Shown here piece after piece: positions 11,157-22,333 of a DNA stretch of 64,000 nucleotides. Location: assembly GCF_000307265.1 (NCBI RefSeq), contig NZ_DF158899.1, positions 285,952 through 349,951 on the forward strand, in the 5' to 3' direction. Numbering within the stretch: position 1 is the first letter of the stretch; each line of letters starts with the position of its first letter. Under the pieces are notes generated by a model, which did not search any database, was not told the DNA's origin, and saw only the letters and a program-made list of their open reading frames with translations. This DNA comes from Oscillibacter ruminantium GH1. GTDB taxonomy: Bacteria > Bacillota > Clostridia > Oscillospirales > Oscillospiraceae. The translations under genes and the position numbers were made by a program.

Positions 11157-12893
11157 CTACATCTTCCACGCGCCGGTGCGCTGCTGAAGCTCCAGCATGT
11201 GGCGGTAGATACCATTCTGGGCCTCCAACTCTGCGGGCGCACCCTGCTGGGACACCACTCCACCGGAGAGAACGACAATTTTATCCGCCCCGGCAACCGT
11301 CCGCATCCTATGCGCGATAATCATCACCGTTTTGTTCTGGATAAGCTGAGACAGCGACTCCTGAATAAGTGTCTCGTTCTCCACGTCCAATGAAGCGGTG
11401 GCCTCGTCCAGCAGGATAATGGGTGCATTTTTCAGGAAAGCGCGGGCAATGGAAATGCGCTGGCGTTCACCGCCGGACAGCTCCGAACCATTCTCGCCGA
11501 TGAGGGTGTGATAACCTTGGGGCAGCTTATCGGCAAACACATCACAGTGCGCCAACTTTGCCGCACGAATAACCTCTTCGTCGCTGGCGTCCTTGCGTCC
11601 GATGCGAATATTTTCCAGAATGGTATTATTAAACAGCGTCACATCCTGAAACACGATGGAATACAGCCCCATTAGCGTTTCTGGGTCGGTTTTTGCCACA
11701 TTCATGCCTCCCACAGTAATTGTACCTCTGGTGGCATCCCAAAACCGGGCAGCCAGACGGGATACGGTGGTCTTGCCTCCGCCGGAAGGACCGATGAGCG
11801 CCGTGACCTCGCCCTGCCGGGCGGTAAACGTGACATCCTTCAGCACCTGCTCCGACTGGTTGTAGGCGAAGCCCACATGATCAAAGACAATGTCGCAGCC
11901 CTGATTGGTAAGCTGCTCCGCGCCCTCCTGTACGGGGTACTCCAAAATCTCATTCATACGCCCGCAGGGAATGTTCAGGGAGACGATGGCGCTTAAATTA
12001 TCCAGTGTTGTGATCATGGGGTCGTAGATGCGGGAAACCACCAGCAAAAACATAAAGAAGGGCAGCACATCCAGCGTTCCGTTTGCCAGCAGTGTGCCGC
12101 CCATCAGCGCGGTGGAGGCAATGCCCAGTTTCAAGATCATGCGGGCGGAGCCGTTGAACACGGCGTTGCCCAGCTCTGTGGTAATGGTTTTCTTTTCTAC
12201 ATCTTTGATTTTTGCATCCAGCCCCACCAGATATTCATCCTCGGCATTGTTCGCTTTCAGATCCCGCACCGATTCCAAGCACTCCTGAATGCCGTCCGCA
12301 AAAACCATTTTTGCTTGCATCTGCTTTGCCTGCTTGCGATTCATCGCTTTGGCGGAAGTGAGGATGACGGCAAACGAGACGGGCAGCACCCACAGAGCAG
12401 CCAGCGCCATGCGCCAGTCGAAGAAAAACAGGCTGAGGGCGATGAGCAGAGTGGAAATCATAGAGCCGATTAACTCCGGTATCCAGTGGGAAGAGGCCGT
12501 TTCCAGCGTGGCGCAGTCGGCCATAATGGTGCTGGTCAGGTCGGCAAGGTCTTTCTTTCCGAAAAAGGACAGTGGGAGCTTGCGCAGCTTTTCTGCCAGC
12601 GTGATCCGCCGCACGCCACTTTCCTTGTAGGTTGCGAAGAAGGTGGCGTTGTACTGGAGATAAGTAGTAACCAAGATCAGTCCAAGGCAAATTACGATTC
12701 CAACCACATAAAAAGCAGTCCGGGTAGTGCCGGTTCCGCTCATCAAGTCGCTTACAAGGGAAACCAGCAGACCCACAGGAAACATCAACACCAGATAGGA
12801 CAGCGTGCAGGAGACAAAGGCCCAAACCATGTCCTTTGCACCCTTTTGAGAGAGTGCGTATTTATGCTGCAAATATTTAAGCATTGAGAGCAC
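11157..12893 (-). CDS. ABC exporter half, subunit 2 (membrane domain + ATPase)
   Basis: 578 residues: six-helix exporter membrane domain (about 1-310), then the ATPase with Walker A GPSGGGKTT, signature LSGGERQR and Walker B ILLDEATASLD. Both catalytic motifs are intact. It follows subunit 1 with a 17-base overlap, the usual layout of heterodimeric exporters. Sequence flavour and operator context point to the IrtAB/YbtPQ-like side of the family (siderophore or metal-related), but substrate cannot be read from sequence. The operon is preceded by a DtxR-type palindrome (14672-14689), which supports metal control. Multidrug export remains an alternative. Confidence 0.85.
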   Translation of the reverse strand: MLSMLKYLQHKYALSQKGAKDMVWAFVSCTLSYLVLMFPVGLLVSLVSDLMSGTGTTRTAFYVVGIVICLGLILVTTYLQYNATFFATYKESGVRRITLAEKLRKLPLSFFGKKDLADLTSTIMADCATLETASSHWIPELIGSMISTLLIALSLFFFDWRMALAALWVLPVSFAVILTSAKAMNRKQAKQMQAKMVFADGIQECLESVRDLKANNAEDEYLVGLDAKIKDVEKKTITTELGNAVFNGSARMILKLGIASTALMGGTLLANGTLDVLPFFMFLLVVSRIYDPMITTLDNLSAIVSLNIPCGRMNEILEYPVQEGAEQLTNQGCDIVFDHVGFAYNQSEQVLKDVTFTARQGEVTALIGPSGGGKTTVSRLAARFWDATRGTITVGGMNVAKTDPETLMGLYSIVFQDVTLFNNTILENIRIGRKDASDEEVIRAAKLAHCDVFADKLPQGYHTLIGENGSELSGGERQRISIARAFLKNAPIILLDEATASLDVENETLIQESLSQLIQNKTVMIIAHRMRTVAGADKIVVLSGGVVSQQGAPAELEAQNGIYRHMLELQQRTGAWKM

Positions 12894-14652
12894 CTACCTT
12901 CCATTTTGCAGCTTTGCCGTACTGCGTCCACATGGCGTTATAGATACCGCTTTGGGCGGTCAATTCCTCATGCGTTCCGCTTTCGGCAATCATGCCGTTA
13001 TCAAGCACGTAGATGCGGTCGCAGCTCGTCACGGTGGATAGACGGTGGGCAATCATAATCACGGTTTTATCTTTGAATAGCTCCGTGAACGCCGATTGCA
13101 CCTTTACCTCATTGTCCGGGTCGGCGAAGGCGGTTGCTTCGTCGAGAATAAGAATCGGCGAATTCTTCAGCATAACCCGCGCGATGGAGATGCGCTGCTG
13201 CTCGCCGCCGGAGAGATAGATGCCCTTTGTGCCCACCACCGTGTCGATGCCATGGGGGAGTTTTTCGATGATATCGCCGCACTGGGCCGCATGGAGCGCA
13301 GAGAGCACCTCCTCGCGGGAAGCCCCCGGCTTTGCCATGCGGACATTTTCGAGAATGGAGTTTTTGAAAAGTTTGGAATCCTGAAACACAAAGGAAACTG
13401 TGTTCATCAGCTCCTCTTTTGCCATGTCTTTCACATTCACGCCGCCGATTTTCACCTCTCCGTCCGTTGCATCCCAAAAGCGGGCCACCAGACTTGCCAG
13501 CGTCGTCTTACCCCCGCCGGACGGCCCCACAAGGGCAACGTGTTCGCCGGGCCTGATGGCAAGGGCAATGTGGGTGAGCGCGTTTGCCTTGGCGTCTTTA
13601 TATTGGAAAGATACGTCTGCCAGCGTCACGGAGTTATCCGCCGGATGCTTCGGCGCGGAGGGTTCAGACAGCGGCTGCACCGCCATAATGGAGTTGATGC
13701 GTTCCAGCGCGTCCGCGACCACCATTGTATTCTCGCTGGAATACATGATTTTATTGAGGGTGACGGTAATAACCGGCGTAATAATGATGTAAAACAACAA
13801 ATTCAAAAGGAAGTCGTTTGTGACCCCATTTTTGGTCACAATCAGCCCCACCGCAATCAGCACCGCAAACACCGCGTTGATGGCCGTGGTATAGATCGTC
13901 ATGGGAAGACGCAGGTCTTTCGTATAAGAAACCACCCATTTTTCATATTCGTCGATGGAGCTTTTGAAGCGCTTGAAGGAAAACACCGACTGCCCGAAGG
14001 TCTTGACCACCGGGATGCCACGCACATACTCCACCGCCTCGTTGGACATGGTATCCAGAGAGTTTTGATATTCCTCCATCTTTTTCTTCATTTTTGCCCC
14101 GGTCATGCTTCCCATAATGGCAAACGCCAGCATGACGGGTATCAGGCTCAGTAACCCCAACCGCCAGTCGAAGACCAGCAAAAGCGCCAGCAAGCCCACC
14201 GGCGTTGCATACGCGCCCGCCATGTCCGGCAACTGGTGGGCAAGATAAGTTTCTGTGGCGGCGCTGGATTCGTTGACGATTTTTCTGAGCTTTCCGCTGC
14301 CGAAGTCGTCCATAAAGCCCATGGGCAGCTTGACGATGTGGTGCATTGCCTGAGAACGAATATTGGCCTGCACACGAAATGCCGCCAGATGAGAGCACAC
14401 GAGCCCACACAGATAAACCACCATGGACGTCACCGCAAACAGCACCGCCATCCAACCGTTGCGGGCAAGCCCGGTCGCAGCGCCAAAGTTTGGAGCAACC
14501 GCCAACACCTCCCGGATGATACGCCAAATGTACACAAAGGGAGCCAGCGCCATCAGGGCGCTGACCACCGATAGTATCCATGAGCACATCGTCAGGTATT
14601 TGTACGCCCCGGCATAGCCAAAGAGCTTTTTTAGATCGGATTCTTTTTTCAA
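12877..14652 (-). CDS. ABC exporter half, subunit 1 (membrane domain + ATPase)
   Basis: 591 residues with six membrane helices followed by an ATPase domain: Walker A GPSGGGKTT, signature LSGGEQQR, Walker B ILDEATAFADP. The catalytic Glu is present, so unlike many heterodimers neither site is obviously degenerate. First gene of a two-gene operon. The leader on the minus strand carries an extended -10 (TGCTATAAT), a small GAAA-loop hairpin and the 18-bp palindrome near the ribosome site GGAGGGG. The pair likely acts as one exporter or importer in the cytoplasmic membrane. Confidence 0.85.
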   Translation of the reverse strand: MKKESDLKKLFGYAGAYKYLTMCSWILSVVSALMALAPFVYIWRIIREVLAVAPNFGAATGLARNGWMAVLFAVTSMVVYLCGLVCSHLAAFRVQANIRSQAMHHIVKLPMGFMDDFGSGKLRKIVNESSAATETYLAHQLPDMAGAYATPVGLLALLLVFDWRLGLLSLIPVMLAFAIMGSMTGAKMKKKMEEYQNSLDTMSNEAVEYVRGIPVVKTFGQSVFSFKRFKSSIDEYEKWVVSYTKDLRLPMTIYTTAINAVFAVLIAVGLIVTKNGVTNDFLLNLLFYIIITPVITVTLNKIMYSSENTMVVADALERINSIMAVQPLSEPSAPKHPADNSVTLADVSFQYKDAKANALTHIALAIRPGEHVALVGPSGGGKTTLASLVARFWDATDGEVKIGGVNVKDMAKEELMNTVSFVFQDSKLFKNSILENVRMAKPGASREEVLSALHAAQCGDIIEKLPHGIDTVVGTKGIYLSGGEQQRISIARVMLKNSPILILDEATAFADPDNEVKVQSAFTELFKDKTVIMIAHRLSTVTSCDRIYVLDNGMIAESGTHEELTAQSGIYNAMWTQYGKAAKWKVGALNA

Positions 14653-14671: not shown

Positions 14672-14741
14672 AATTAGATGCAACTAACCATTTGCCCTGT
14701 AAGAAGGCATCTTTCGATGCCTAACAGGTTTGATTATAGCA
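14672..14741 (-). promoter_or_regulatory. Promoter and DtxR-type operator (site A) of the ABC operon
   Basis: The -10 TATAAT is at 14733-14738 with TG just upstream (extended -10). A GGCATC-GAAA-GATGCC hairpin lies in the leader (about 14706-14721). The palindrome GGTTAGTTGCATCTAATT occupies 14672-14689, between the hairpin and the ribosome site. It matches the GGTTAR-N6-YTAACC consensus of the boxes at 16.7 and 21.8-21.9 kb. Confidence 0.55.
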
Positions 14742-14997: not shown

Positions 14998-16233
14998 CTA
15001 CACATTGCTGCTTCCGTCGCTATACTGATCGCCGCCCTGATACATACGGTCTGTTGTGCCGATCTGGCTCTCGCTTTGTTTTCCATCAATTTTAACATTC
15101 GTTTTGCAGCTGATGATTTCACTGCCGACCGCGCGTCCCGCGACTGTACCCGGGGTAACCGCGCCATTAATGGCACCGGGCACAGAGCAGTTTTCAACAG
15201 TAAAACGGTCCTCCATGCCATAGTAGTAAAGCCCGGTTCCCACAAGACCGCCCACATGGGTGGCACCATTGGCATTGACGGTGACATTCACCGTGCAATC
15301 GGTAATGCTGCAAGGCGGATCGATGGTTCCGTCTCCATCGTCACCCATACCTGCATACCCGCACAGGCCGCCGATGGCATGTCCATTGCCTGCATTGATC
15401 CTCACGGTCACGGTGTTGCCTGTAATACTGGGGGCACACTGAATACATCCGGCAATACCGCCAAGCCCCACCGGCTCATTCCCCGTGGCTGTGACCGTTC
15501 CATTTGCGGTGCAGTTGTCCACAGTGCCCATAAAGCTGCCGCCCACCACAAGGCCGCCGCACTCCGCAATATCACACTGAATGAGTCCGCCCGTAAAGTC
15601 GTTATCGCCAATGACGACGATATCGGCATTTTCTACGGTGCAGCCGTCCACCCTGCCCTGATTACCGCCAACAATGCCACCTACGCAGTTGATGCCGGTA
15701 ATGGTATTATCGCCCTTCAGGGTGATGTCAGTGACCGTTCCCATACCGTAGCCCATCACGCCGCCGATAGCCATATTCGTTTCACTGCCGATCACCACGG
15801 CGTTTTCCATGGTCAGATTGGTCACGGTTCCTGTCATACAGCCGAAGAGGCCCGCTGCAATGCTGTCGTCAGCCGCCGTGCAGTTTAAATTGGAAATCGT
15901 ATAGCCGCCGCCATCAAAGGTGCCGGAAAAGGCTGTGGAAAAATCCACTTCACCGGTTTCCGGATCGGTGGCGCTTAGCTTGACATCTCCAATAGACGTC
16001 CAATTCTCAATGCCGACAAGATCAATATCCGCCGTCAGCACATAGCTTGCTGTCAGTTCGTTGCGAACCCGTTCCAACTGCTCTGCGGTCGCAATCTGAT
16101 AAGGGTCATCCGCTGTGCCGCTGCCGCCGACAAAGCCGACGGTTGTTTTTTGCGCACTGCACCCACTCAGCGCCAGCGCAAGAACCATTACTGCCGCAAT
16201 CAGGGCAGCAGCGCCTCTTTTTTCCGTTTTCAT
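14998..16233 (-). CDS. GLUG-motif repeat lipoprotein
   Basis: 411 residues. Signal peptide with lipobox LALSGC near residue 22-27, so it is surface-anchored. Next is a GTADDPYQIATAEQL segment typical of the start of GLUG/Listeria-type surface repeats. The body has about ten short Gly-rich beta repeats (G-G-x-x-G-x-x-x-G-x-V type, with Asn-Cys pairs), consistent with a right-handed beta-helix. Numerous Cys occur for an exported protein. The start at ATG 16233 has AGAAAGGA upstream. Role unknown, perhaps surface binding. It is monocistronic, inside the metal island but without a DtxR-type box of its own. Confidence 0.8.
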   Translation of the reverse strand: MKTEKRGAAALIAAVMVLALALSGCSAQKTTVGFVGGSGTADDPYQIATAEQLERVRNELTASYVLTADIDLVGIENWTSIGDVKLSATDPETGEVDFSTAFSGTFDGGGYTISNLNCTAADDSIAAGLFGCMTGTVTNLTMENAVVIGSETNMAIGGVMGYGMGTVTDITLKGDNTITGINCVGGIVGGNQGRVDGCTVENADIVVIGDNDFTGGLIQCDIAECGGLVVGGSFMGTVDNCTANGTVTATGNEPVGLGGIAGCIQCAPSITGNTVTVRINAGNGHAIGGLCGYAGMGDDGDGTIDPPCSITDCTVNVTVNANGATHVGGLVGTGLYYYGMEDRFTVENCSVPGAINGAVTPGTVAGRAVGSEIISCKTNVKIDGKQSESQIGTTDRMYQGGDQYSDGSSNV

Positions 16234-16443
16234 TGATTTATTTCCTTTCTCATTCCTCATTCCGCCAGAGCCGCGCCCGGCGCCTTGCGGATTTTCACCC
16301 CAATTGCATCGGGGCTTCGTTGCAGACTGCGCTTTCACAGTTTTGATCTGCTTTTTGATTTAAACGGACAGGACGAAAGAGCGCCCGTTTTAATGCCCGC
16401 CCGCGCCGGCGTATAATGGCGCATCAACCGCTCTTCCGACCTG

Positions 16444-16734
16444 TTACGCCTCCAAGCCGGTATGCTTTTCCAATATTCCGCGCAGTGCAGATGCAGAGCT
16501 GGTGTGACACCGCTCGATAATGGTATTCGTCCCTTTGATTTCGCTCATCGCGCCCCGCACCATTTTGTGAGACATGGTACTTGTAAAAAAGATCAACAGA
16601 TCCGGCTCGCCAAGTTTCTTCCGCAGTCCTCCGGCCGCCTTTGTGAACACCTTTACCTGACAGTCATATTCACCACAGAGCTCCCTATAACGGCGCTCCA
16701 TACATTCGTTTCCTCCCAGAATGACAACACTCAC
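16444..16734 (-). CDS. DUF2325 domain protein
   Basis: 96 residues, whole DUF2325 family length, starting SVVILGGNECMERRY and containing FTSTMSHKMV and HTSSASALR, the conserved core of the family. Its biochemical role is unknown. Members often occur next to iron or heavy-metal transport genes. The start is GTG at 16734, 5 nt after GGAGGTGAA. It is separated from the ATPase gene by that gene's terminator and carries its own DtxR-type box (16754-16771), so it is a separate unit of the same putative regulon. Confidence 0.85.
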   Translation of the reverse strand: MSVVILGGNECMERRYRELCGEYDCQVKVFTKAAGGLRKKLGEPDLLIFFTSTMSHKMVRGAMSEIKGTNTIIERCHTSSASALRGILEKHTGLEA

Positions 16735-16753: not shown

Positions 16754-16771
16754 AGTTAGATAACCTTAACC
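16754..16771 (-). promoter_or_regulatory. DtxR-type operator (site B) before the DUF2325 gene
   Basis: Minus strand GGTTAAGGTTATCTAACT: two 6-bp arms with a 6-bp spacer, directly upstream of the ribosome site. It shares the arm sequence and spacing with sites A, C and D. Confidence 0.55.
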
Positions 16772-16883: not shown

Positions 16884-18953
16884 TTATGCAAGAAGATTTG
16901 TCATGCCGTGCAGGCTGACGCCAAGGGTCGAGGCATTGTGCAGCAGCGCGGAGGTCGCCGGCGGCAGCACTCCTGCCACACCCAGCGCAATCAGCACACC
17001 GTTGAAGGCGATGATAAAGCGGTAGTTGCCGCGGATGCGGGCCATCAGCGCATCGCTGAGTGCTTTGAGGGTCACAAGGGCAAACAGGTCGTCGGCGGAG
17101 ATGGTGATATCGGCAATCTCCCGGGCGATGGCCGCTCCATCCGCAATGGCAATTCCGGCGTCGGCCTCAGAGAGGGCGGGAGAATCGTTAACGCCGTCGC
17201 CAATCATGATGACTTTTCGCCCGGCCTCGTGCTCGGCGCGGATAAATTCCGCTTTGTCCTCCGGCAGCACCTCGGCGTGATATTCGTCCACGCCGACGGC
17301 CTTGGCAACAACTTTTGCGGTGCGGTCATTGTCACCGGTCATCATCACAATTTTCTGAAGCCCCAGCCTCCGCAGACTGGTAATCACGGCGGAAGCCTCC
17401 TCCCGCAGAGGATCGTCAATGCAGATCACCGCAGCCAGTTCTCCGCCGATGGCCATGTAGAGATGGGAATACTCGTCGGGCAGACTGTCAAAGCGTATCC
17501 TCCCCTCATCGGGAATCCGGCAGCCCTCATCCTGAAAGACAAAGTGATAGCTGCCGATGATGACCTTTTCGTTTTCCACAAGGCTGGAAATACCATGTGC
17601 CACCACATATTCCACCTTGGAATGGCGTTCTTCGTGGTGCAGTCCCCTCTTTGTGGCCTCCTGCACCACGGCGTTGGCCATGGAGTGGGGGTAATGCTCC
17701 TCCAAACAAGCAGCTAAGCGCAGCATTTCGTTTTCGTCCCGGCCGCCAAAGGTGACAAGCTGGGCCACCTGTGGGGCAGCATGGGTCAACGTCCCCGTTT
17801 TGTCAAATACAATGGTGTCCGCCTCGGACACCGCCTCCAGAAAGCGGCCGCCCTTCACCGAAATGTGATAAAAACCCGACTCCCGCATGGCGGAGAGCAC
17901 CGTAATGGGCATGGACAGCTTCAGGGCGCAGGAGAAATCCACCATCAGCACCGAGAGCGCTTTGGTGACATTGCGGGTCAGCAGATAGACCAACACGGTG
18001 CCGCCCAGACTGTATGGCACCAGCCGGTCGGCCAGATGGGAGGCCTTGTCCTCCGTCATGGACTTGAGCTTTTCCGATTCTTCAATCATTTTGACGATAC
18101 GGTCATAGCGCCCGCTGCCGGAAACCTTATCCACGCAGACGACGCACTCGCCCTCCTCAATGGCGGTTCCGGCATAGACATAGCTTCCCACAGTCTTGCG
18201 CACCGGCATGGATTCGCCGGTCATAGATGCCTGATTAATCATGGCCTCGCCGGAGATGACTTTGCCGTCCAGAGGGATCATGTTGCCGGTTCGAATAACC
18301 ACGCTGTCGCCAACACGAATCTGTGTAACGGGGACCATCACCTCCGTTCCGTCCACCTGCAGCCAGACCTTTTCCACATTCAGCGCCATACTGCGAGCCA
18401 AATCATCCACCGACTTTTTGTGGGTCCACTCTTCCAGAATGCCGCCCAGCTTCAGTAAAAACATGATGGAAGAAGCCGTTTCGTAATCGCCCCGCAGCAT
18501 GGAGACGGTGATGGCGGTTGCATCCAGCACCGCTACCTCCAGTCTGCCGCGGAGCAAGGCGCGAATGCCCTTCCAAAGATAACCGCCGGATTTGAAAGCG
18601 GCCGCGGCGATGCGGACAGGCATCGGAATAAACAGCCGACTGACCGCGCGGCCGAGCACCGTAAAAACGATTTTGTCCTCATACGCGCGGTTCAGTTCCC
18701 GTCCGGTATGTTCGGGAGCAAAGACGGCGCTGCTTTCATAGGAAAAAGCGGACAGTGCATTGATGATCGCGGCTCTGCCGCAGAGATAGTGAATGACAGC
18801 GTCGCCTGTCCGGTCGTAGACCTGCACATCCGTTACGCCATCTACGGTTTTCATATAATATTCGAGCACATCGGCCTGCGCGAGCGTCATGCGCGTCTGC
18901 ATCAGATGCACGCGCAATCTGCCTTTGGATTCATGGAGTATTTTGCATTTCAT
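16884..18953 (-). CDS. P1B-type metal-transporting ATPase with SCA membrane motif (FezB-like)
   Basis: 689 residues. No CXXC metal-binding domain at the N-terminus (starts with a basic ESKGRLRVHL segment). TGES phosphatase motif at 245-248, phosphorylation site DKTGTLT at 384-390, an HP-like locus (HYPHSMA) and the hinge GDGVNDSPAL near 595. The membrane motif that is CPC in copper or zinc pumps reads Ser-Cys-Ala at 341-343 (DFSCALKL). This, the lack of an HMA domain and the DUF6110 neighbour recall the P1B-6 ATPases (FezB) that load iron into ferrosomes. That link is by recollection and inference. A mini-terminator (18969-18992) lies between this gene and DUF6110. Confidence 0.85.
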   Translation of the reverse strand: MKCKILHESKGRLRVHLMQTRMTLAQADVLEYYMKTVDGVTDVQVYDRTGDAVIHYLCGRAAIINALSAFSYESSAVFAPEHTGRELNRAYEDKIVFTVLGRAVSRLFIPMPVRIAAAAFKSGGYLWKGIRALLRGRLEVAVLDATAITVSMLRGDYETASSIMFLLKLGGILEEWTHKKSVDDLARSMALNVEKVWLQVDGTEVMVPVTQIRVGDSVVIRTGNMIPLDGKVISGEAMINQASMTGESMPVRKTVGSYVYAGTAIEEGECVVCVDKVSGSGRYDRIVKMIEESEKLKSMTEDKASHLADRLVPYSLGGTVLVYLLTRNVTKALSVLMVDFSCALKLSMPITVLSAMRESGFYHISVKGGRFLEAVSEADTIVFDKTGTLTHAAPQVAQLVTFGGRDENEMLRLAACLEEHYPHSMANAVVQEATKRGLHHEERHSKVEYVVAHGISSLVENEKVIIGSYHFVFQDEGCRIPDEGRIRFDSLPDEYSHLYMAIGGELAAVICIDDPLREEASAVITSLRRLGLQKIVMMTGDNDRTAKVVAKAVGVDEYHAEVLPEDKAEFIRAEHEAGRKVIMIGDGVNDSPALSEADAGIAIADGAAIAREIADITISADDLFALVTLKALSDALMARIRGNYRFIIAFNGVLIALGVAGVLPPATSALLHNASTLGVSLHGMTNLLA

Positions 18954-18968
18954 AGCTGCCTCCGTTAT

Positions 18969-18992
18969 AAAGAAAAGCCGCCCTGCGGCGGC
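18969..18992 (-). terminator. Intraoperonic hairpin between DUF6110 and ATPase genes
   Basis: Minus strand GCCGCC-GCAG-GGCGGC followed by TTTTCTTT, ending 15 bases before the ATPase start. It looks like a short intrinsic terminator that could lower ATPase expression relative to the upstream small membrane proteins. Confidence 0.5.
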
Positions 18993-19012
18993 CTCTCCAT
19001 GACTGTTTGGGG

Positions 19013-19300
19013 TTATTCTGCGGCGCTTTCCGCCGCAGCTGCTTGGCGGATTGCCCGATCCTCAATTATTTTGTCGTTTTCCTCGGCATATTTTTCGTTT
19101 ATCGCCTTTGCATCGGCATAAATGTCGCAGCAGTCCTCCTTGATGTCCGTCACAATGCCCATGATGTGTTCCTTCTCCCGCAGCACGGTGGCGGCGGCAA
19201 AGGAATAGAGTTTCTTTGCGTCCCGGCTCCTGAGAATGCGGTATCCCAGCGTGCTCAGAAGAGCGCCGCCAGCCACCAGCTTCAGTTTGCACCAATCCAT
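19013..19300 (-). CDS. DUF6110 family small protein (FezA-like candidate)
   Basis: 95 residues. A short N-terminal hydrophobic/amphipathic helix (KLVAGGALLSTLG) is followed by RSRDAKKLY and a charged helical tail with DIYADAKAINEKYAE, the DUF6110 signature. It probably sits on the inner face of the membrane. In clostridia such proteins accompany P1B-type ATPases. In ferrosome loci a small membrane protein (FezA) is needed with FezB, and this is the best local candidate. The start at 19300 (AAGGAGG 8 nt upstream) was preferred over the longer frame from 19372, which overlaps the 26-residue gene. Confidence 0.8.
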   Translation of the reverse strand: MDWCKLKLVAGGALLSTLGYRILRSRDAKKLYSFAAATVLREKEHIMGIVTDIKEDCCDIYADAKAINEKYAEENDKIIEDRAIRQAAAAESAAE

Positions 19301-19314
19301 ACGATCAGCCTCCT

Positions 19315-19395
19315 TTATTTCTTTTCGTAGCCTGCAATGATGGCAAGCAGAAAGCACAGCACGGTCAGCCATGCAAATGTTTTATGAATCTTCAT
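19315..19395 (-). CDS. 26-residue single-span membrane peptide
   Basis: ATG at 19395 to TAA at 19315, beginning MKIHKTFAW and ending GYEKK, with about 17 hydrophobic residues between basic ends. AGGA lies about 9 nt upstream. It is the first of the three tightly spaced genes peptide-DUF6110-ATPase, 14 bases before the next start. It has the form of a small transporter subunit or scaffold peptide. Too short for family assignment. Confidence 0.6.
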   Translation of the reverse strand: MKIHKTFAWLTVLCFLLAIIAGYEKK

Positions 19396-19421: not shown

Positions 19422-20456
19422 TTAAATGATACCAATCTTTTTGATTGGCTTCCGCTCCATTCGGACATTTTTCACGGTTTTTTCCGGCGCCCAATCCGCA
19501 CGGGAAGCGCGCCTGTATTTGTCAGGGGTTTCCCCCATCACATCACGAAAGGCCTTGGCAAATTTGCTGCCGTTGTCGTAACCAAAGATTCCCGCAATTT
19601 CCATCACATTTTTATTCGTCTGCCGCAAGAGCACAGCGGCTTTCTGCATTTTGAACTGCCGGGCAAAGGTATAGACGGATTCCCCAAAGACACCCCTGAA
19701 GCAGGCTTTCAGAGTCGTCTGTGAAATACCGAACCGTTCCGCCAGCTCACTGACGGTGATATGCTTTTCCGTGTGCTGCGTCAGATATTCCTTCGCCGCC
19801 TTGACCGCCTCCACCTGTGCCGCAGGAAAGTACCTCGAATCGGATACGGCGTCGGCAGCAAGGTCTGTTCCACCCAGAAACAGCAGCAGTTCCATGACCT
19901 TGATTTTCAGATAGCCCTCCCGAATCTGTTCGGGAATGGAATACAGCTCCGAGAAAATGTGTTCGATGCCGGGCCGCGCACGAATGACGGTACACGCGTG
20001 ATTTTGACAATAACGCTCCATCAGCTCCGAGGACTTCACCGGGGTATCCTCCAAAATACAACTCAGACACCGGGAGGCGGAGTCTGTGTCAAGGGCGACG
20101 GTGATACCGTGATAGTGGCTAAGTGGAAAATAGGTGTTATGAACGTTTCCAACCTTTCTGTGGATAGTCAAATCACCGGGCGTCATGTAAATATATTCGC
20201 CGCAAACCTCACACTCCATGCGGCCCTCGCGGCAGTGGTCGATTTCCAGCAGTCCATCCAGCGGCAGTACATCAGTGCCGCAGACCGGTCTATGTACATC
20301 GTTATAAATGACATCTACGCCGGGAAACACCTGATAACTTGTCATCACGGCCTCGCCCGTTTCATCGGCAAGCCGGTAAACCGTGCAGCCCTTCTCGCGG
20401 CGAACAATTTCTACGCCGGGTCCGTATATTTGCTTTTCGCGTTCCGTTGCGCTCAC
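19422..20456 (-). CDS. AraC-family transcriptional regulator
   Basis: 344 residues. The N-terminal sensor part (about 1-230) contains a Cys-rich patch (HCREGRMECEVCGEY) that could sense metal or redox. The C-terminal AraC DNA-binding domain (about 235-330) has two helix-turn-helix units, including ISQTTLKACFRGVFGESVY and GYDNGSKFAKAFR. It starts with GTG at 20456 after GGAGG. Located between the HMA protein gene and the ATPase cluster, same strand. Likely a second, local activator of the metal genes. The effector is unknown. Confidence 0.85.
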   Translation of the reverse strand: MSATEREKQIYGPGVEIVRREKGCTVYRLADETGEAVMTSYQVFPGVDVIYNDVHRPVCGTDVLPLDGLLEIDHCREGRMECEVCGEYIYMTPGDLTIHRKVGNVHNTYFPLSHYHGITVALDTDSASRCLSCILEDTPVKSSELMERYCQNHACTVIRARPGIEHIFSELYSIPEQIREGYLKIKVMELLLFLGGTDLAADAVSDSRYFPAAQVEAVKAAKEYLTQHTEKHITVSELAERFGISQTTLKACFRGVFGESVYTFARQFKMQKAAVLLRQTNKNVMEIAGIFGYDNGSKFAKAFRDVMGETPDKYRRASRADWAPEKTVKNVRMERKPIKKIGII

Positions 20457-20489: not shown

Positions 20490-20741
20490 CTATATGTGAC
20501 CAAACAGTCCTTTCTTCTCATAAGGCTCTGTCTTGACGCAGGTAAGCGTATAGCCGGTCTTGCCGATTACTTCTTTCAATGCCGCCTCGTCAATAACCGT
20601 CTCGGTCAGAATGACCGTTTCTCCCTTGCTGCGGGAGGAGGATACCTTTTTGACCGGAAACGCCCGCCGAATGGCGTCGTTTACATGGGACTCACACATG
20701 CCGCAGGCCATCCCGTCAATTTTTAGAATCATGCGGTTCAT
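20490..20741 (-). CDS. HMA-domain metallochaperone-like protein
   Basis: 83 residues. One heavy-metal-associated domain with the GMACGMC binding loop at about 9-15 and the DEAALKEVIGKTGY helix near the end. The family binds soft metals (usually Cu+) and hands them to a P-type ATPase. Here the ATPase itself has no HMA domain, so this may be its separate donor. Gap to the AraC gene is 33 bases. AGGAG lies upstream of the ATG. Confidence 0.85.
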   Translation of the reverse strand: MNRMILKIDGMACGMCESHVNDAIRRAFPVKKVSSSRSKGETVILTETVIDEAALKEVIGKTGYTLTCVKTEPYEKKGLFGHI

Positions 20742-20854: not shown

Positions 20855-21664
20855 TCATTTTCTGCCGCAGATGATACCCATCTGCCCCAAAATCAACGGC
20901 GTGTTCAGAAGTACCGGTGCATAGTCCGGGCGGCGCATATCCAAAAAATGAACCTCTGCGGTGTAAGGCTCCAATGCCTTGACAAATTTATGAATATCCC
21001 CGTAATGACTCTTTGCGAAAAATATATCCTCAAAAACAAAATATCCGCCGGGTTTTACTACACGCAGCGCCTCCCGTACCAGCGCAAACTTGTCCGGCTG
21101 GCTCATGACCTCGTGGAACACAAAATTGCTGATGGCCGCGTCAAAGGTCCCATCTGAAAAATCAAGTTTTGCGGCATCTCCCTTTTGAAAGGTGATCCGC
21201 TCCGCGACGCCCTCGATCTTGGCATTGCTCTCGCAGAGAGTTTTGCTGTAATCCCAGCCTGCACCCCAATAGTCCATGCCGGTGACAACCACATCGGGAA
21301 ATTTCTTCGCGGCTTTGATACTCATCGCTCCGCTGCCGCAGCCGATGTCCAGCAGCTTTCCCTTGCCGTCCCAGCCCAGCGCCTCCAATTGGGACAGCAC
21401 GCCGTCCAGAACTTTGCCCTGAACGCCGCCGCCATGATAGGAAAGGATTCCCCGGGCAATGAACATGTAGAGGGTAACCACGCAGGCGATAACCGCCAGC
21501 ACAATCAGCACCAGACCAAGCCATGTCGTTTGCTTGGTCAGGCTGAAAACGGTGACCGAGCCCGCCGCGAGCAGGACGGTTGCTATGCCTCCCGTAATGG
21601 GTATCCATTTGGAAACCCAGTTGGAATACTCCGGTTTTAACTGCGTCTGCGATAATTGTTTCAT
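20855..21664 (-). CDS. Membrane-anchored SAM-dependent methyltransferase
   Basis: 269 residues. Two hydrophobic helices at about 18-38 and 47-68 anchor the protein. A class I methyltransferase fold follows, with motif I LLDIGCGSG near 99-107 and the acidic/NFVFHEV and LRVVKPGGYF segments. Substrate unknown. The start at ATG 21664 has GGAGG; a 45-residue upstream frame extension crosses the operator region and is rejected. First gene of the minus-strand metal operon, preceded by three DtxR-type boxes, which ties a methyltransferase to metal status. Confidence 0.85.
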   Translation of the reverse strand: MKQLSQTQLKPEYSNWVSKWIPITGGIATVLLAAGSVTVFSLTKQTTWLGLVLIVLAVIACVVTLYMFIARGILSYHGGGVQGKVLDGVLSQLEALGWDGKGKLLDIGCGSGAMSIKAAKKFPDVVVTGMDYWGAGWDYSKTLCESNAKIEGVAERITFQKGDAAKLDFSDGTFDAAISNFVFHEVMSQPDKFALVREALRVVKPGGYFVFEDIFFAKSHYGDIHKFVKALEPYTAEVHFLDMRRPDYAPVLLNTPLILGQMGIICGRK

Positions 21665-21790: not shown

Positions 21791-21867
21791 GATTAGCATA
21801 AACTAACCAGACGGAAAAACAATTGGTTAGTAATATCTAACCGTCTTTTAGTTTAACTACCCTAACC
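21791..21867 (-). promoter_or_regulatory. Operator array (sites C2, C and a weak third) for the metal operon
   Basis: Reading the plus strand: GATTAG-CATAAA-CTAACC at 21791-21808, the perfect palindrome GGTTAG-TAATAT-CTAACC at 21825-21842, and a degenerate AGTTTA-ACTACC-CTAACC at 21850-21867. On the minus strand site C2 overlaps a candidate -10 (TATGCT), so binding should block transcription of the methyltransferase/HMA/AraC/ATPase genes. Confidence 0.65.
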
Positions 21868-21915: not shown

Positions 21916-21933
21916 GGTTAGAGTATGTTAACC
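21916..21933 (+). promoter_or_regulatory. DtxR-type operator (site D) before the regulator gene
   Basis: GGTTAG-AGTATG-TTAACC, 38 bases upstream of the regulator ATG and next to TTGAAA, a possible -35. This suggests autoregulation. Confidence 0.65.
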
Positions 21934-21970: not shown

Positions 21971-22333
21971 ATGACGATACACAGAGCCTCTGAAGACTAT
22001 CTGGAAGCCATGCTGATGATGCAGGAGAAGCACGGCTATATCCGTTCTCTTGATGTGGCGGAACAGTTGGGCGTGACCAAGCCCTCCGTCAGCTATGCCA
22101 CGAAACGCCTGCGGGAGGGCGGCTATATTACCATGAACAGCGACAGCCACATCACCCTCACCGAGACCGGCATGGAAATCGCCCAGCGAATGTACACCCG
22201 GCATAAGTTGTTGACCGAGTATCTGATTTGTCTTGGCGTAGACGAGGAAACCGCACGGAAGGACGCCTGCAAAATTGAGCACGACATCAGCGAAAAGACC
22301 TTCGAAGCACTCTGCAAACACGTAGGAAGATAA
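21971..22333 (+). CDS. DtxR/MntR-family metal-dependent repressor
   Basis: 120 residues: winged helix (SEDYLEAMLMMQ, then SLDVAEQLGVTKPSVSYATKRL) and the metal-binding/dimer domain with ETGMEIAQRMYTRHKLLTEYL, plus C-terminal EHDISEKTFEALCKH. The SH3-like third domain of DtxR is absent, as in MntR-size members. The start was set at ATG 21971 by family alignment; an upstream TTG (21956) is possible. Divergent from the metal operon, with boxes on both sides of the intergenic region, so it is the natural regulator of the GGTTAR-N6-YTAACC sites. Metal (Fe2+ or Mn2+) not determined from sequence. Confidence 0.85.
   Translation: MTIHRASEDYLEAMLMMQEKHGYIRSLDVAEQLGVTKPSVSYATKRLREGGYITMNSDSHITLTETGMEIAQRMYTRHKLLTEYLICLGVDEETARKDACKIEHDISEKTFEALCKHVGR

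Follow-up and report, generated by a model that had tools for sequence, protein, structure and literature searches.

In a 64,000-nucleotide stretch of the Oscillibacter ruminantium GH1 genome (3.1 Mb; contig NZ_DF158899.1, G000:C4:285952-349951; hereafter the window), a gene cluster is interpreted here as a predicted ferrosome-type, fezAB-like iron system of the class Clostridia, expected to be switched on when iron is scarce and to answer to a DtxR-type regulator rather than to Fur, with an estimated probability of about 0.72. On sequence evidence, its P1B ATPase and DUF6110 protein match the Clostridioides difficile pair in family and in gene arrangement, and its putative operators resemble those that precede feoAB and flavodoxin genes in relatives. 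The initial annotation had proposed a ferrosome locus from the nucleotide sequence, a proposal that is supported as far as sequence goes, neither of the two outcomes named as refuting it having occurred.

Ferrosomes have, to our knowledge, been demonstrated in few bacteria, and the locus offers a specific case open to experiment in a lineage of Clostridia other than C. difficile, with a different iron sensor and operator predicted. Recognition of DUF6110 as a FezA-like family would make candidate loci findable by profile search and would tie FezA of ferrosomes to PacL, the scaffold of efflux platforms in mycobacteria. Pairs of DUF6110 and P1B6 genes are of a known kind and already published; what appears new within the literature searched (the founding ferrosome papers lying outside that search) is the extension of the operon, the conserved 26-residue peptide, and a putative DtxR-type operator of a kind that Feo and flavodoxin genes also have. 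No published description of either the peptide or the operator was found in that literature.

The ATPase and its DUF6110 partner

The minus-strand genes encode, in 5'-to-3' order, a methyltransferase, an HMA protein, an AraC regulator, a 26-residue peptide, the DUF6110 protein, the P1B ATPase, and a DUF2325 protein, with a DtxR/MntR-family regulator gene (21971-22333, plus strand) divergent from this run. Both the consecutive peptide, DUF6110, and ATPase genes and the extended set described in the initial annotation (HMA protein, AraC regulator, methyltransferase, DUF2325, divergent DtxR-type regulator) were recovered in full. The three central genes are as follows:

16884..18953, minus strand: predicted P1B-6-type ATPase, FezB-like; SCA in the fourth transmembrane segment (TM4), HN near the C terminus, without an HMA domain
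19013..19300, minus strand: DUF6110 protein, putatively FezA-like/PacL-like, 95 amino acids; PF19605 E 1.4e-21; one predicted hydrophobic span, then a long helix
19315..19395, minus strand: predicted 26-residue single-span membrane peptide; DUF6110-P1B6 companion in 12/38 loci

The ATPase comprises 689 amino acids and matches TIGR01525 with 482 bits, its DKTGT, TGES, and GDGVND motifs being intact. The Ser-Cys-Ala motif and the lack of an own metal-binding domain, both noted earlier, were borne out: TM4 reads VDFSCALK without CPC, no CxxC domain is present, and the profile searches gave no HMA match in this protein. The SCA motif is presumably a mark of P1B-6 ATPases. An HN motif is located near the end of the membrane region, a feature assigned to P1B-6 in the relevant passage of PMC9374683, and the N-terminal stretch carries GRLR; of the 35 members of the clade described below, 31 have GRxR within their first 60 residues. 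Among the seven E1-E2 ATPase matches of the genome, LMVDFSCALK is unique to the window protein, and the two others with a P1B-type TM4 carry CPC.

The best match in C. difficile CD160 exhibits 59% identity over residues 5-688, the four other matches there reaching at most 32%, and the copy in genome G324, whose RpoB stretch is 99% identical to a Protein Data Bank chain taken as C. difficile, exhibits 60%; CD160 and G324 are together termed C. difficile-type. In a tree of 57 P-type ATPases, 35 DUF6110-linked enzymes, both C. difficile-type copies included, are located on one side of a 100/100 branch, all of them with HN and with SCA (31) or CCA (4) in TM4, the other 22 carrying CPC (20) or CPG (2). 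Left out of the tree were the own-genome rows L006 (a duplicate of the window) and L002, L004, L005, and L007 (no P1B-type TM4 motif), as well as L161, L164, and L165 (no full ATPase) and three further CD160 matches. The window ATPase grouped with the DUF6110-linked enzymes and apart from the CPC-type pumps, and the grouping with Zn/Cd or Cu exporters that had been named as contrary evidence was not seen. With its SCA motif and its position outside the CPC-type group, the protein lacks the marks of the Cu- or Zn/Cd-exporting P1B ATPases, and the branch and the full-length identity of 59% make it a FezB-like P1B-6 ATPase, the C. difficile-type enzymes being taken as FezB from locus tags and neighbourhood.

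The DUF6110 domain was matched at 76.8 bits against a cut-off of 26 (E 1.4e-21). Its gene likely starts at the ATG at 19300, which follows GGAGG, the start of a longer open reading frame at 19372 being less likely. A single-sequence model of the protein contains two helices, one hydrophobic and one long (mean predicted local distance difference test 79.8, predicted template modelling score 0.38), which fits a one-span scaffold but proves little. The gene lies directly upstream of the ATPase gene in the window, in CD160, and in G324; the proteins of the latter two have 132 residues by the reading used, and that of G324 is 35% identical to the window protein over 86 residues.

The C. difficile fezAB genes are given as CD630_05910-05920 in one paper, and a table published in another lists CD630_05910 as an ATPase and CD630_05920 as a hypothetical protein, with positive values in the comparison columns and a '+' at CD630_05920, taken as a Fur-box mark. 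On account of these locus tags and of the position directly upstream of the C. difficile-type ATPase, the DUF6110 protein is deduced to be the FezA-like partner, and the 26-residue peptide to be an extra component. A FezA-like membrane protein is thus predicted beside the ATPase, and the second contrary outcome, DUF6110 bearing no relation to FezA, was likewise not encountered, the identity as FezA being drawn from neighbourhood and locus tags. DUF6110 is described as PacL-like and as typically encoded with P1B6 ATPases in the relevant passage of Boudehen et al. (2022, PMC9374683).

The DUF6110 family was identified in 34 of 393 genomes of the class (28 above the Pfam cut-off) and, within the genus, in 4 of the 36 other genomes. 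Thirty-eight loci were compared: the window, CD160, five loci in four genomes of the genus, and 31 of the 34 further places that the class search gave (G395, G240, and G108 being left out). A P1B6 ATPase gene adjoins DUF6110 in 36 of the 38, the exceptions being L161 and L165, and FeoB lies inside the fetched stretch in eight. At L161:6309-6569 the DUF6110 gene is present in a 13.9 kb contig with no match to the window P-type ATPase. The 580-bp gap between DUF6110 and the ATPase in CD160 (L123:5753-6307) is made up of a 44-bp tandem repeat in 12.4 copies; the corresponding gap in G324 (L172) is only about 86 bp.

Related pumps on Deinococcus, Arcobacter, and Azospirillum plasmids (12 records) all show less than 60% identity. 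On the Deinococcus peraridilitoris plasmid pDEIPE02 (L253), an annotated DUF6110 gene lies directly upstream of a P1B6 ATPase gene, with an IS4-family transposase gene upstream. An Azospirillum brasilense plasmid (L254) encodes a P1B ATPase with an SCALK motif in a different extended cluster, ordered as two GRIR/GRVR-motif proteins (one annotated HMA2), two hypothetical proteins, a YtxH protein, and then the ATPase.

Putative operators and the predicted type of iron control

Five copies of a putative operator of the form TTAG-N6-CTAA, together with the divergent regulator gene, are found in the window:

14672..14689, plus strand: putative DtxR-type operator AATTAGATGCAACTAACC
16754..16771, plus strand: putative DtxR-type operator AGTTAGATAACCTTAACC
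21791..21808, plus strand: putative DtxR-type operator GATTAGCATAAACTAACC
21825..21842, unstranded: putative DtxR-type operator GGTTAGTAATATCTAACC, a perfect palindrome, 7 bp downstream of a promoter-like TTGACA-17-TAAACT
21916..21933, plus strand: putative DtxR-type operator GGTTAGAGTATGTTAACC, 37 bp ahead of the regulator start
21971..22333, plus strand: DtxR/MntR-family regulator; PF01325 and PF02742; mixed Asp...Cys-x-x-Glu-His metal site

The window has five distinct matches to the pattern RNTTAGNNNNNNYTAACC, where 0.02 would be expected, and the whole genome has nine, compared with one match of the reversed control. The five window sites are located before the gene pair for an ATP-binding cassette (ABC) transporter, before the DUF2325 gene, and between the methyltransferase and regulator genes, while a sixth genomic site is found 27 bp ahead of a flavodoxin gene. 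The pattern was written after the window sites had been viewed, so the exact palindrome was used for an independent test in other genomes. This palindrome is present in 32 of 60 genomes (59 relatives and the own genome), at 49 sites against 3 for the reversed control. The 31 other genomes hold 46 exact sites. With feoA, feoB, flavodoxin, and DUF3793 genes called by phmmer (E 0.001), 36 of these sites have the start of such a gene within the interval from -80 to 300 bp, 28 of them that of a feo gene; by genome, an exact site stands beside such an iron gene in 28 of the 31, those without being the genomes of L211, L219, and L228. An earlier partial count comprised 34 sites in 29 loci, 27 of them near iron genes, to which the final count adds the remaining 12 sites. 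Of 8000 random positions drawn from these loci, where feo, flavodoxin, and DUF3793 genes are frequent to begin with, 1948 fell near such a gene.

At several DUF6110 loci, sites of the looser pattern head the gene run leading into DUF6110 and the ATPase (L017, L019, L020, L021, L159, L162) or, in L165, into peptide and DUF6110 without an ATPase. In L159 one operator is followed by FeoA and an HMA protein and then by peptide, DUF6110, and ATPase, and in L021 one operator is followed by flavodoxin, DUF3793, and a DtxR gene before the same three. At least one looser-pattern match is present in 11 of the 37 other DUF6110 loci and none in 26, both C. difficile-type loci included, so that the operator is far from universal among them.

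The operators of ABC half transporter 1 and of DUF2325 lie about 20 bp ahead of the respective start, and that of the regulator 37 bp ahead; these positions suggest repression rather than activation by the bound regulator. A promoter scan returned one site, not above shuffles (0.7), and TTGACA-17-TAAACT alone is not above chance. The DtxR-type iron box TTAGGTTAGSCTAACCTAA, described as bound by two dimers in the relevant part of PMC10317159, likewise contains TTAG and CTAA six bases apart, and in our reading TTAG-N6-CTAA may represent one dimer's share, or half, of the DtxR/IdeR box; the window operator differs in being a single palindrome, not an overlapping box for two dimers. With three mismatches allowed, the box gave 19 against 14.5 and does not rise above chance; the stricter pattern alone does.

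Fur control of the window locus was considered and rejected, the palindromic core ATAATNATTAT being found nowhere in the window. In CD160 this core lies about 255 bp upstream of the DUF6110 gene, and at the G324 locus only a near-match was recognised by eye. Fur control of the C. difficile ferrosome locus is reported in a review and read from the '+' of the published table, on which the contrast mainly rests. The earlier guess of DtxR-type rather than Fur control gains support from the operator analysis, binding by the regulator being predicted.

The regulator possesses Fe_dep_repress and Fe_dep_repr_C domains, as members of the DtxR family do. Of the Met-Cys-Glu-His iron site, Cys, Glu, and His are kept and Asp replaces Met10, as in MntR. 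A Porphyromonas gingivalis regulator with the same ligands is described, in the part of the source dealing with it, as binding both Mn and Fe; the residues alone are therefore not decisive for the metal, which is argued from the regulon and not from the site.

Further operator sites of the own genome have other neighbours. At L195:7596-8987 (C3, near 502 kb), a feoB-like gene with Gate and FeoB_C but no FeoB_N lies near three operators, its neighbours encoding a FeoB-associated peptide, a DtxR-like protein without a metal-binding-domain match, and a methyltransferase. At L196:6373-6390 (C5), a perfect operator palindrome is found about 190 bp behind the gene of a 291-residue DtxR-like protein and precedes the genes of 171- and 1729-residue proteins, both secreted-looking by eye.

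Proposed function and competing explanations

Under low iron, the DtxR-type regulator would leave its TTAG-N6-CTAA operators and the operon would be expressed, a step supported by the operator analysis. The DUF6110 protein may then gather the ATPase into membrane patches or vesicles, and the ATPase would move Fe(II) through that membrane, so that the compartment would store iron that becomes available again once starvation ends. The requirement for both FezA and FezB for C. difficile ferrosomes, stated in the passage of the review that concerns them, is in line with this compartment-loading step. The HMA protein, methyltransferase, AraC regulator, DUF2325 protein, and ABC pair would be accessory members of this predicted regulon.

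With C. difficile fezAB the locus shares a DUF6110 gene followed by a P1B ATPase gene, an ATPase identity of 59-60%, and SCA and HN in both enzymes; it differs in adding the 26-residue peptide, AraC, HMA, methyltransferase, DUF2325, and the ABC pair, and in its putative DtxR-type operators, the C. difficile locus being reported as controlled by Fur. The core pump of the Desulfovibrio magneticus Fez cluster (FezB, FezC) is a P-type ATPase. A putative ferrous-iron pump as core is common to that cluster, as presented in part in PMC10979944, and to the window. The DUF4405 cytochrome reported for D. magneticus is not counted as defining here, FezA and FezB being the parts named as required in C. 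difficile. The mycobacterial PacL-CtpC platforms (DUF1490) resemble the locus in pairing a small one-span protein with a P1B ATPase, and DUF6110 is published as PacL-like in the passages seen on it; the differences are an iron-starvation-type operator as opposed to a zinc system, and SCA as opposed to the CPC reported for CtpC. The window protein itself matches DUF6110 only and ends in AAAESAAE, without His, Asp, or Cys; it thus shows neither the DUF1490 domain nor the C-terminal metal-binding motif of PacL platforms.

Were the pair a plasma-membrane iron efflux platform, DUF6110 would cluster the ATPase as PacL does CtpC, and Fe(II) would be expelled without any organelle. In PMC9374683 and PMC13043812, DUF6110 is related to DUF1490/PacL and proposed as an assembler of P1B6 platforms, which is consistent with this, as is the modelled hydrophobic helix with its long companion; neither of these two papers contains the word ferrosome. 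However, operators of the iron-starvation-gene kind fit repression by iron, whereas an efflux pump should be iron-induced, and the review's requirement for FezA together with FezB also speaks for ferrosomes, so that an efflux platform appears unlikely. A zinc, cadmium, or copper exporter with a usual HMA chaperone and an unusual motif would account for the CxxC HMA protein in the operon and for the score of TIGR01512, the Cd family, above its cut-off (340 versus 313), but it is highly improbable given that SCA replaces CPC, that the ATPase stands apart from the 20 CPC-type and two CPG-type enzymes of the tree, that TIGR01511 (Cu) stays below its cut-off, and that the operator marks Feo and flavodoxin genes. 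Equally slight is the chance of a manganese system with an MntR-like regulator and a Mn(II)-handling pump: the best NCBIfam matches of the regulator are MntR models, albeit below cut-off, and Asp occupies the place of the DtxR Met ligand, yet a Cys is kept at the DtxR Cys102 position, where a sulfur ligand is said in the source passage to favour iron, and in relatives the operator adjoins feoAB, flavodoxin, and DUF3793 genes.

Several observations weigh against a DtxR-controlled ferrosome system. The Asp...Cys-Glu-His site of the regulator is a hybrid, its pairing with the operators is inferred from position, and other DtxR-like genes lie near the other operators of the genome. The three operators of the main operon are at least 126 bp before the first start codon, that of the methyltransferase. 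The promoter scan also called terminator-like stems, two where 0.3 were expected, with the palindrome among them, so that it may have a terminator role. The C. difficile-type loci have none of the matched accessory genes and no peptide beside the pair, and no match to the FezC-type DUF4405 (PF14358) was found in the own genome at E 0.01. Finally, the window ATPase groups with copies from other families (L157, L160) and not with those of its own genus, a placement that points to transfer.

The companion peptide and neighbouring genes

A profile of the 26-residue peptide matched 12 of the 38 DUF6110 loci, window included, with E values from 4e-21 to 3e-12, and nothing else below 0.28. The peptide gene is directly 5' of DUF6110 in 11 of the 12; in L170 it follows the ATPase gene, and the product is also 26 residues long if read from an internal ATG. 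Upstream of the peptide, an AraC gene is present in eight of the other 11 loci, as in the window, its place being taken by the DtxR gene in L021 and by the HMA protein behind FeoA in L159. Met1, Lys2, His4, Ala8, Cys14, and Gly22 are invariant in nine aligned copies, the L170 peptide having Ala at position 14, and two copies start with TTG. Ten copies gave mean proportions of synonymous (pS) and nonsynonymous (pN) differences of 0.76 and 0.20, with pN below pS in 45 of 45 pairs. Because of this pattern and the recurrence in 12 of 38 loci, the peptide is, on sequence evidence, a real, selected gene beyond chance. Two DUF6110-peptide loci each occur in G023 (L017, L020) and G096 (L165, L166), and in L165 DUF6110 and peptide have no ATPase gene beside them. 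A small annotated gene in an Azospirillum cluster showed no likeness to the peptide.

The peptide was ruled out as FezA, the FezA-like gene being DUF6110 and no such peptide being present in either C. difficile-type locus. Membership in DUF6219 was also rejected. Copies from two relatives match the first 24-25 positions of that profile with 24.7 and 27.6 bits (cut-off 27), the window peptide scoring 13.9 and the L170 peptide 21. Full-length DUF6219 was found only three times in the 393 class genomes, all in G435 on contigs without its DUF6110 gene. Six weak matches starting at profile position 1 or 2 (G286, two in G096, G321, G279, G233) are all at DUF6110 loci, and the remaining weak ones begin later in the profile; some copies thus weakly resemble part of DUF6219.

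Tiny membrane subunits are known from other P-type ATPases, such as KdpF and sarcolipin, with which the peptide may be compared in kind. Its probable place in the membrane is next to the ATPase or DUF6110, where it would tune or stabilise the complex. A broader proposal, tentative and as a whole rather doubtful, is that the peptide is a dedicated ferrosome-pump subunit, bound in the membrane to either the P1B-6 ATPase or the DUF6110 scaffold and governing how the pump assembles or works, that the locus represents a second, DtxR-controlled ferrosome type in Clostridia, and that DUF6110/PacL is a shared scaffold for iron-storing and metal-exporting P1B platforms.

The remaining genes of the predicted regulon are as follows:

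19422..20456, minus strand: AraC-family regulator; similar AraC genes upstream of the peptide in 8 other loci
20490..20741, minus strand: HMA-domain protein of metal chaperone type, CxxC; PF00403 26.6 bits against a cut-off of 24.8
20855..21664, minus strand: methyltransferase with a hydrophobic N-terminal region; start after GGAGG, read from the sequence
16444..16734, minus strand: DUF2325 protein; PF10087 E 1.3e-28; own putative operator upstream, box at 16754
12877..14652, minus strand: ABC exporter-type half transporter 1; PF00664 and PF00005; putative operator upstream, box at 14672
11157..12893, minus strand: ABC exporter-type half transporter 2

The half-transporter pair (14652-11157) lies further along the minus strand, beyond a lipoprotein-like GLUG-repeat protein (14998-16338, minus strand) that is encoded between DUF2325 and the pair and has no operator directly upstream. 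In L163, a half-transporter gene, similar by eye, adjoins HMA and methyltransferase-like genes.

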